Part shown: positions 1,569-3,946 of the stretch, in pieces
Position numbering within the stretch: position 1 is the stretch's first letter
Layout of the letters: each line of letters starts with the position of its first letter
DNA from: Collinsella sp.
GTDB taxonomy: Bacteria; Actinomycetota; Coriobacteriia; Coriobacteriales; Coriobacteriaceae
Assembly (NCBI GenBank): GCA_029264355.1
Contig: JARIBW010000011.1
Coordinates: forward strand, 1-41,498
Length of the DNA: 41,498 nt
Direction of reading: 5' to 3'
Position numbers and translations under genes: made by a program
Notes under the pieces: model-generated
The model's database searches: none
Seen by the model: only the letters and a program-made list of their open reading frames with translations
What the model was told of the DNA's origin: nothing

Positions 1569-1989
1569 ATGCAGTCTCCTTCGAGCGACTTTTATTGTGT
1601 CATCTATAGCATTTGGGATTTGGCGCAGCGGCCGCAACAATAAAGTTCGGTAACGAGATCTAATGCGAGTCGCATAGCGGGAGCAATTCCGCAAGAGGAA
1701 TAAAATGCACATTGATATGCGATTCTCGAGCAATCTTTACGTTCCGTTCGGTGGTGGGGGTGGTAGCCTGCGCTGGCGTGAGTGACGCCCTGATGCGGAT
1801 CATGGGGCAATGAGGACATGGGTGCGTTTTGGTGTTTCGAAACTTGTTATTGATTGGCCTGTGACCGGTGCTCGGCTCGTTCAGCTGGACCCCATGTCTA
1901 AGTAAAATGTATACCTTGAGGCTATTTTCCCTGTAACGTGCATAGAATTTTGGACGTGAGATGACGAGCGTCGTACGTTTCTTAAAGTA

Positions 1990-2195
1990 TGGTCAAAATA
2001 CCCTGATTGTGCGCCGAGAGGTTCTGTCGTGAACGGCAAAAGCCCAGGATTGCCGAAGCCGAATCTTTGGGAGCGTGTGACTCTGTTCTGCTGAGGTCGG
2101 AGGCGTGCGGTAAAACCGCAGGATTACTAGAGGCAGGGGAGTATGCAAGCTAAAACCCGGGGGTGTATCGGCGCACAATCAGGGTATTTTGACCA
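1990..2195. mobile_element. MITE-like element, 206 bp, with 28-bp inverted ends
   Basis: The 28 bases at 1990-2017 (beginning TGGTCAAAATACCCTGATTG) are the perfect reverse complement of 2168-2195. The 150 bases between them have no credible gene but contain a small hairpin (TGCGGT at 2106-2111 with ACCGCA at 2115-2120). Size, perfect terminal repeats and lack of a transposase fit a non-autonomous miniature inverted-repeat element. I see no matching target-site duplication on the two sides, so the insertion may be old or the exact ends may differ by a base or two. The parent insertion sequence is not in the window, and I cannot assign a family. Confidence 0.6.
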
Positions 2196-2215: not shown

Positions 2216-2247
2216 AACGGCCTCCCTTTTTGAAAAGGGAGGCCGTT
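2216..2247 (-). terminator. intrinsic terminator for the serC-serA-DUF1015 unit
   Basis: AACGGCCTCCCTTTT at 2216-2230 pairs perfectly with 2233-2247. Read on the minus strand, the stem is followed by four U residues (AAAA at 2214-2217 on the plus strand). It lies about 190 bases beyond the stop of the DUF1015 gene. The bases between (2248-2437) hold nothing I recognise. Confidence 0.6.
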
Positions 2248-2437: not shown

Positions 2438-3811
2438 CTACCTCGCGATGCGGTGGATGAAAAGGCCGCTGCGCAGCTTGGGCTCGAACCAGGTTGATTT
2501 GGGTGGCATGACCTCGCCGGCGTCGGCTACGGCGGTCAGCTGGTCGATGCCGGTTGCGCATACCGTGAACGCGACGCCATCTTGGCCGGCTCGCGCCTCG
2601 AGTTCATCGGTGCCGCGGATTCCTCCAACGAACGAAATCCGTTCATCGGTGCGAGGATCCCCGATTCCAAGAATGGGGGATAGGATGCAGTTCTGCAGAA
2701 TCGAGCAATCGAGGGAGTTTGCCGCGTCGGATGCAGTCTCGTCATCCATGGCGGTCGCCCCTGCCAACTCATGTTCATTCGCGTCCCCGTCGAGTTGGCC
2801 ACTTGGGAGGGGGCCCGTTCCGGTGCGGAGGCAGCTGGAGGGATTCTGCGCGGCATAGATCCTTGCGTCGGGATTGTCGGCCCGCAGTTCGTACCAGGTT
2901 CCGTCGGTGTACATGCCGAACACGCCGCGCTCGCGCGGCTGCACCGGCCCCTCGGCCTCGACGATGCCAAATCCCGCCCCACTCAATACCTCGAGAAGCT
3001 CATACGTGTCGAGGCCGTTGCGGTCGGAAACAACGCGGTTGTACGGCAGGATGGTGAGCTGGCTTGCGGGGAACAGCGCGGAAAGCACGTAATTGAACGG
3101 CTCCTTGCCGGTATAGGTGCCCGCCGACCTCGCCTCCTCGCGCATGCGGCGCGCGACCTTCACGGCGCTCGCGGCCCGATGATGCCCGTCGGCTATGTAG
3201 GAACATGGAATCGTGTCGAGCATGGCGCGAAGGGCGTCGACGGCGTCATGGCGCACGACCTCCCATACGGTCTGGCGTACGCCCATCTCGTCGGTGAAGT
3301 CGTACAGCGGGGTGGAGGTCGTGGCCGCACCGACGATCATGTCGAGCACGGGCTGGTCGCGGTAGGTGAGGAAGATCGGCCCCGTCTGGCAACCGAGCGC
3401 GTTGATGTGCTCGATGCGGTCGAGTTCCTTATCCTCGCGTGTGAGTTCATGGCGTTTGATGACACCGCTCTCGAAATCGTCGACGGCACACACGCAGACG
3501 ATGCCGGTCTGCACGTGTCCTTCCCATGCAAGCCGATAGATGTAGTACGCGAGGTTGCGATCCTCGACGAATGTCCCGTCTTCGACGCGCTCGCGCAGCA
3601 GCTCCGCTCCACGCATGTAAACCTCGGGCGCGTACATGTCTTGTTCGGCGGGAAATTGCGTCTCGGGTCGGTCGATGTTCAAGAAGGAGAGCGGCCTGTC
3701 TTTAACATACGCAGCGGCCTGACCGCGGTCGAATACGTCGTAGGGGAGTGCGGCCACCTCGGCGGCGCGCTCGGGTACGGGGCGGATGCAGGGAAAGGGA
3801 AGCGCTCTCAT
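2438..3811 (-). CDS. DUF1015 family protein
   Basis: This 457-residue protein belongs to the DUF1015 family, whose members end with the pattern seen here (MPPKSTWFEPKLRSGLF). Other family marks are the N-terminal ALPYDVFDR, the internal YIADGHHR and SQLTILPYNRVV. The function is not established. Members often sit beside serA and serC, as here, so a role linked to serine or phosphoserine metabolism is plausible but inferred. I chose the ATG at 3811 (MRALPFPCIRP) because a GAGAGGA site precedes it. The open frame extends 37 codons further upstream but with poor composition. It is the last gene of the minus-strand unit, 135 bases after serA. Confidence 0.9.
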   Translation of the reverse strand: MRALPFPCIRPVPERAAEVAALPYDVFDRGQAAAYVKDRPLSFLNIDRPETQFPAEQDMYAPEVYMRGAELLRERVEDGTFVEDRNLAYYIYRLAWEGHVQTGIVCVCAVDDFESGVIKRHELTREDKELDRIEHINALGCQTGPIFLTYRDQPVLDMIVGAATTSTPLYDFTDEMGVRQTVWEVVRHDAVDALRAMLDTIPCSYIADGHHRAASAVKVARRMREEARSAGTYTGKEPFNYVLSALFPASQLTILPYNRVVSDRNGLDTYELLEVLSGAGFGIVEAEGPVQPRERGVFGMYTDGTWYELRADNPDARIYAAQNPSSCLRTGTGPLPSGQLDGDANEHELAGATAMDDETASDAANSLDCSILQNCILSPILGIGDPRTDERISFVGGIRGTDELEARAGQDGVAFTVCATGIDQLTAVADAGEVMPPKSTWFEPKLRSGLFIHRIAR

Positions 3812-3946
3812 GGACGGTCCTCTCGCGGTTTCGATCATGCATGTCGATATCCTACCTCGCCGGCAGTTTTGACGACGCGGAAAAAACGGGGTGTTCGTTC
3901 TCGCGTCGGGACCCGCATGCACAGGGCGGCGTTCGGTCCGGGTGCG

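Follow-up and report, generated by a model that had tools for sequence, protein, structure and literature searches.

The 206-bp element at positions 1990-2195 of the window (the whole stretch of DNA analysed, 41,498 nucleotides of a Collinsella sp. genome) is a member of a family of paired inverted arms, and neither a lone structure nor a recent insertion. Members of this family were found as pairs, with a constant helical phase between their arms, at orthologous chromosomal positions, with fixed internal sites in most copies of the window's own arm class, and with arm sequences that differ between species at the same locus. The reading that we favour, at somewhat better than even probability, is a conserved DNA-level platform whose arms would be bridged by a clade-specific protein, and not an active transposon. 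From these sequence patterns we infer the protein, the bridging and a purpose, which may lie in chromosome architecture, gene control or a recombination synapse. The rival readings discussed further on are in part overlapping.

The paired element of the window

The inverted-repeat search delimited a left arm of 28 nt (TGGTCAAAATACCCTGATTGTGCGCCGA; 1990-2017, plus strand) and a right arm (2168-2195, minus strand) which is its perfect inverted copy; the two are 100% complementary and 150 nt apart, in agreement with the preliminary description of this DNA. At equal base frequencies, chance would produce perfect inverted 28-bp arms no more than 1 kb apart around 1e-9 times per 41 kb. The interior had been described as free of genes, and no ORF of at least 80 amino acids overlaps 1990-2195 (shorter ORFs were outside the ORF list). 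The adjacent terminator that had been reported is a real terminator-like hairpin at 2216-2247 (minus strand), outside the element; since its T-run is on the minus strand, it fits the end of the neighbouring DUF1015 gene (2438-3838, minus strand; Pfam DUF1015, E 1.9e-95), which served as synteny anchor, and a similar hairpin precedes the ortholog in C. intestinalis. Degraded surroundings had also been proposed, and this held for the side next to the element, where the remnant of a histidine-phosphatase gene lies at 1738-1834 (minus strand; 72.5% over 102 bp); the gene is intact beside the element in C. intestinalis. The histidine-phosphatase protein of C. intestinalis gave no tblastn match to the window at 1e-5. 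Positions 1-1990 presented little coding signal, together with this decayed gene.

Family members and arm classes in Collinsella

The genus set comprised 43 genomes. The window's genome, G000, comprises 53 contigs totalling 1.56 Mb. With up to three mismatches allowed, it gave 10 matches to the outermost 23 bp of the arm, against none for the reversed-pattern control. Five pairs were present, including the window copy and one whose right arm matches at 17/23 only, along with one arm that lies 171 bp short of where contig C35 ends. Seven pairs were found in each of two other genomes, G015 (matched to C. intestinalis DSM 13280) and G037 (matched to C. stercoris DSM 13279). The pattern of these arms, here called class a, was detected in four of the 43 genomes, the other three being G015 (13 arms), G037 (14) and G027 (one); the controls gave 0. 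All class-a arms of the three genomes (up to three mismatches) form inverted pairs except the arm at the contig end, two of the pairs having a weaker right arm (17/23). The first pair table, in which pairs of 150-300 bp were accepted, held 20 pairs, 19 with class-a arms and one in G027, and the outer lengths of class a were 204-206 or 216-217 bp.

Clustering at the terminus was considered for G037 (one contig) and rejected: the seven copies lie at 985-1562 kb and the best DnaA match, which scored under the family cut-off and was accompanied by noisy GC-skew samples, at 2033 kb, so that the copies are on one side and not centred opposite the origin. In the same genome (G037:C1:1328500-1339000; L056 and L051) two dihydrouridine synthase gene copies, each with an element, lie 4 kb apart, an arrangement which suggests a segmental duplication or an assembly effect.

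A looser pattern retrieved pairs in 15 of the 43 genomes, many of which differ in the inner part of the arm. Class c is the most frequent, and its core (CAAATATGAGTACTG) was present in 21 of the 43 genomes with 5-12 matches per strand per genome, and pairing was seen among the matches listed; class-c copies were compiled from part of these matches as arms near each other, so the collection covers paired and not lone arms. Five of seven genomes examined carry the class-c arm, G001 having one lone arm. In G002, a single contig, there are exactly six class-c pairs and zero lone arms (up to three mismatches); because the arms occur only as these six short pairs, this genome is without a longer copy holding a gene. 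A third class (b) was found in G027, including at the window's own locus, and classes d, e and f (G014, G016 and G042), with one pair each, are leads. The pair pattern of classes a and b did not occur in 22 genomes from other genera of the family (4/65 overall, all four within the genus).

De novo searches of 400 kb per genome retrieved a different repeat, in 13 clusters, from G025, and 13 matches without a common 12-mer, two of them candidate-like by eye, from G016. The G025 repeat (TGACAGAAACGGGCAATTTGGCAGT; L297-L316, G025:C1:200001-600000) displays a rigid 104-bp inverted spacing, a 31-bp tandem spacing and a conserved interior. Further arrangements were noted elsewhere in the genus: class-d arms twice per side, about 50 bp apart with a sequence like GATTCGAATC between them, in G014 (L068, 1400-1800); and inverted CCTCTCTGGGGACGGGGGTG sites near a DUF1015 gene, two of them in tandem on one side, in G029 (L140, 930-1250). 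The right flanks of L119 and L206 hold fragments like a tRNA 3' end (GGGTTCGAATCCC), and such fragments, together with a repeat some 120 bp long, are found repeatedly next to certain class-c elements and a tRNA-Val gene. A raiA RNA (Rfam RF03072, 147.9 bits; L106, 1878-2138) lies within 160 bp of a class-c element, and a sub-threshold partial raiA match is near another (L116).

Conservation at orthologous positions

The window copy matches a copy of C. intestinalis (L046) on the 3' side of the DUF1015 gene, with an interior identity of 0.74 and one gap; this copy in turn matches one of G027 (L144) at the same place, but the arms of the latter belong to class b. Lengths at the DUF1015 locus were 206, 205 and 205 bp in G000, G015 and G027, and at a ZIP-transporter locus 216, 217, 216 and 216 bp in G000, G015, G037 and G027, again with class-b arms in G027. 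Position, orientation and length (usually within 1 bp) are thus held by orthologs as interiors drift. Among 185 flank-linked comparisons, 129 were in the same orientation, 32 were unclear and 24 appeared inverted; the inverted-like ones all had interior identities of 0.57 or lower and all those at 0.60 or above were in the same orientation.

From the perfect ends, the preliminary description had deduced either recent mobility or continued selection. The former is not supported, given the ortholog in C. intestinalis and that of a third species with other arms (L144); the latter is supported by orthologs that keep arms, length and orientation as the interior drifts, and by the decay of the neighbouring gene. 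The arms of the window copy are still perfect beside a phosphatase gene that has decayed; this intactness and the conservation of orthologs we read as selection on the element itself. A single copy with flanks never found without it, the outcome named beforehand as arguing against the element, is not what the genomes present: copies are many, and in C. stercoris (L131) the DUF1015 and histidine-phosphatase genes adjoin without an arm-like pair. The empty-site comparison that had been proposed gave this gene order without the pair, the intergenic alignment being too poor for a base-exact empty site. The change of arms at several loci we read as adaptation to one trans-acting partner, presumably a protein.

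Internal sites and outer motif

The interiors of class-a copies seem unrelated until the copies are oriented according to their internal motif, when a rigid layout emerges. A degenerate copy of the arm core (CAAAACCCCAGGATT) occurs at position 47-48 in 13 of the 19 class-a copies (10/15 matches or better), a second arm-core copy exactly 70 bp before the right end likewise in 13, and in 14 copies TAT(A/G)CA lies at a distance of 53-54 bp from the right end. In the window copy, internal site 1 (CAAAAGCCCAGGATT; 2037-2051, plus strand), a weaker copy of the arm core, is at element position 48, internal site 2 (TAAAACCGCAGGATT; 2111-2125, plus strand) at position 122, 70 bases from the right end, and the TATGCA box (2142-2147, plus strand) at position 153. 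A similar box was found at the corresponding place in two copies of G027 (L144 and L162); in L057 a TATGCA-like box is located elsewhere and in L072 it is absent. Three copies (L047, L051 and L056) constitute a class-a subtype without internal sites at these places, which counts against a multi-site platform. With the exception of this subtype, what class-a interiors have in common from locus to locus is mostly short sites at fixed places.

Immediately outside the left arm of the window copy lies an outer motif (CGTACGTTTC; 1972-1981, plus strand), whose right-hand counterpart is weak in this copy. The family consensus, CGTRCGTTTT, occupies positions -18 to -9, that is, 9-18 bp outside the arms, and is common to unrelated loci; position -16 was T in 25 of 26 flanks and position -11 in 20 of 26, the flanks being those of 13 pairs after omission of 7 of the 20 (six relatives, and L057 as class b). 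Because this motif recurs at unrelated loci, conservation reaches further than the inverted repeat itself.

Length and helical phase

The full table (pairs of 180-260 bp accepted) comprised 78 pairs, 19 of class a, 3 of class b and 56 of class c, including orthologs, whose lengths are non-independent values. Outer lengths fell at 204-207 bp (18 pairs), 209 bp (one), 215-218 bp (32) and 227-229 bp (27), with none between, so that 77 of the 78 pairs are on an 11-bp ladder (204-207, 215-218 and 227-229 bp). With the 209-bp copy counted, the 28 different lengths at 19 loci gave a best period of 11.30 bp (R 0.858), and a single length for each of the 19 loci gave 11.35 bp (R 0.896), loci having been grouped partly by a hand-made synteny list from flank comparisons; none of 2000 random sets was as regular in either version of the test. 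Two pairs were outside the length table: L057, which measures 226 bp and whose right arm is weak, and the only pair of class f, of 195 bp. Differences from orthologs were 11 bp for L197 (217 bp at a 228-bp locus) and 9 bp for L203 (209 bp at a 218-bp locus). The arms are therefore spaced in whole helical turns, as expected of a loop; for lac-type loops in E. coli a helical repeat of around 11 bp per turn in vivo has been reported (PMC8501960).

Proposed bridging platform

In the reading that we favour, a DNA-binding protein common to all copies in a genome would bind the two inverted arms and, in addition, the weaker internal copies of the arm core. Since whole helical turns separate the arms, such a protein could bridge them and fold the 200 bp into a tight loop, the interior acting mostly as a spacer with a few fixed contact points. 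If its DNA preference shifted in a lineage, all the copies of that genome would be expected to shift their arm sequence. Against this model, no DNA-binding partner was found, two loci have mixed lengths (217 and 228 bp; 218 and 209 bp), and the coupling of arm positions 3-4 in class c, described below, is not explained by plain bridging.

A more elaborate version is put forward only tentatively, as a possibility of rather low probability. It proposes a docking system with a handful to a dozen phase-locked paired-site loops per genome and one fast-evolving protein, whose DNA code would be rewritten in step at all loci and would give each clade a private loop code, used for chromosome architecture or for a lineage-specific recombination or defence process.

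If the bridging platform is real, Collinsella, a common genus of the human gut, keeps loops with conserved spacing, position and internal contacts, and with a recognition sequence that differs by clade; this would be a clean natural test of how a protein and its sites change together, and a test case for DNA looping as a selected trait of intergenic DNA. Perfect inverted ends around gene-free DNA, moreover, need not signal a recent transposon.

A possible old miniature element

The rival that survives best, although we regard it as doubtful, is an old and slow miniature element of the REPIN/MITE type, with ends recognised by a transposase encoded elsewhere and a length constrained by the need of the excised unit to fold or synapse. 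Inverted pairs, a variable spacer of conserved length, clade-specific ends and a few to a dozen intergenic copies all suit such an element, and REPINs have been described with the same layout (PMC3116915). By inspection, the 228-bp copies at different loci have related interiors; since these class-c copies share features from locus to locus, copying to new places occurred in the past. Dead copies should decay, however, and the G027 orthologs at two loci have other arms with unchanged length. In G002 the arms occur solely as the six short pairs. At L178, what is missing from three of the 21 genomes is a stretch of 465-468 bp, its edges joined to within 3-5 bp, and not the 228-bp unit; other element-less genomes show other breaks there.

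A regular-expression motif scan of 591,305 of the 1,555,646 bases of G000 gave no convincing HUH/Y1 transposase, nor was a convincing RAYT found in this 38% of the window's genome, the remaining matches being chance-like. No copy with its own transposase was found among four long pairs or in the arm search of G002, and no target-site duplication was seen by eye. The long pairs (at least 1.7 kb between the arms) were considered as an autonomous transposon and discarded: each of them, L102 and L103 (G001) and L195 and L196 (G007), holds the same separate IS256-family element, interrupted in L195. The same IS256-family (Transposase_mut) element was also observed, at L105 963-2297 and L107 2855-4189, 119-141 bp from two more pairs of G001. 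Further insertions are suggested by a 1.5-kb gap in G024, within the pair at the L104 locus, and by an IS end close to L199. Paired-arm elements may attract this insertion sequence.

Promoter and recombination readings

It is improbable, in our view, that the element is a looped promoter or operator of a regulon, with site 2 and the TATGCA box serving as a promoter directed outwards across the right arm. The box and site 2 have constant positions separated by about 16 bp, which would suit this, and the next gene was co-directional with the motif orientation at five of the six class-a loci with a gene assigned (gene calls by a GC-position heuristic; L045/L052, L047/L051 and L056 were outside the assigned set), the five being a DUF3516 helicase, a rubrerythrin-like gene, YbjQ (Pfam), a probable ABC transporter (by eye) and an ORF in L054. 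The sixth locus is that of the window, where the element is downstream of DUF1015 with no gene to drive, as also in C. intestinalis, in which the element lies between converging genes. Furthermore, the flanking genes have no common theme, the box is only loosely -10-like and the number of loci is small.

An invertible DNA segment (inverton), or another target of site-specific recombination, appears less probable still. The sites are inverted, as such a segment requires, but the comparisons at 0.60 identity or above, which are between species, were all in the same orientation, so both orientations were not observed across species. A regular-expression scan of 317 loci for recombinase motifs matched two stretches of G016 only, and the two convincing tyrosine recombinases in the searched part of G000 are XerC/XerD-like by eye.

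Support for recombination came from a variable doublet at positions 3-4 of the class-c arm (TG-NN-CA), which matches within elements. Within-element matches were 16/27 at position 4 compared with 7.2 expected (P = 0.0005) and 26/27 at position 3 compared with 22.4 expected (P = 0.0095), and, taken as a whole, the two class-c arms of an element resembled each other no more than arms of different elements did (P = 0.84); the test used 27 of 28 representatives (L121 was omitted as a near-duplicate), several being orthologs of one locus. Among differences between orthologs, both arms had changed in 15 of 43 at positions 3-4 vs. 3 of 165 and 2 of 57 elsewhere, in rows which are non-independent and with one mis-registered row (L194) adding to the one-arm counts. 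Strand exchange at this point, or some constraint acting on the paired ends, would be compatible with such a doublet. Class-a arms were slightly more alike within elements (P = 0.0097 for 12 loci; P = 0.035 for 19 elements), with arm position 17 standing out (P = 0.0024, 12 loci). A further hint of recombination comes from the locus of argD, a gene identified by eye, at which interiors were exchanged and flanks and outer arms kept: three interiors without mutual BLAST match (L109/L119/L199, L184/L206/L216 and L191) are set between similar flanks and outer arms.

RNA reading

A structured RNA gene closed by the 28-bp stem is very improbable, as Rfam (no match at E up to 5), RNAalifold and the helix scan gave it no support. 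Single strands folded much more stably than shuffled sequences (z -8.4 and -7.8), the two arms pairing over their whole length, two of 23 predicted consensus pairs had changed on both sides, and the likeness of class-a arms within elements (P = 0.0097, 12 loci) is in its favour; against it, one-sided changes break arm pairs, the covariation term was +0.07 (RNAalifold, 13 of 19 class-a copies) and no interior helix exceeded column-permuted controls in nine of the 10 full-length 206-nt copies (near-duplicate L050 omitted; 10 permutations). The consensus structure of the 13 class-a copies consisted of the arms alone. Over threshold, Rfam gave one raiA and one tRNA, both outside elements. By inspection, the 228-bp class-c copies contain an interior terminator-like hairpin in which both sides of the stem have changed, with a T-rich stretch after it; this suggests a transcript-level role for these copies and counts against the platform.

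Comparison with known systems

The preliminary description knew of no named element with these ends, in accordance with Rfam, with viral contigs, which gave no match to the arms, and with the literature matches listed, which held nothing on such elements in Collinsella. Correia elements, which are bacterial MITEs, resemble the family in being gene-free, roughly 200 bp long and bounded by terminal inverted repeats of comparable length (PMC10969869). Unlike in MITEs of this type, class-a copies mostly share only short fixed internal sites across loci, the shared interiors of L051 and L056 being a likely segmental duplication, and no autonomous element with the same ends was found in the G002 arm search or the four long pairs. 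An interior common to the copies and derived from a parent insertion sequence, as in a MITE, was not seen in class a; among 228-bp class-c copies the interiors are partly related.

With REPINs, which are hairpin-forming doublets of REP sequences associated with RAYT transposases, the family shares two inverted conserved ends around a weakly conserved spacer, here of conserved length, as well as lineage-specific ends and intergenic location. A palindromic core was not seen in class-a arms by inspection, and class c has CTGTTAC..GTARCAG; no interior pairing or compensatory changes in the spacer were found in class a, unlike in REPINs. The elements also differ from REPINs in length (204-229 bp vs. 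the common inter-REP spacings of 71 and 110 bp given in PMC3116915), in copy number (about 3-12 vs. hundreds), in the 11-bp length ladder and in arms that differ in concert at fixed loci. Invertons likewise have inverted repeats around some 150 bp, whereas here orientation is kept across species and no recombinase gene was found alongside. Lac-type looped operators differ in that the arms are here long and non-palindromic and one copy lies between converging genes; they resemble the paired arms of Collinsella in a spacing periodicity near 11 bp and in several sites for one protein, which in our case is a postulated one.
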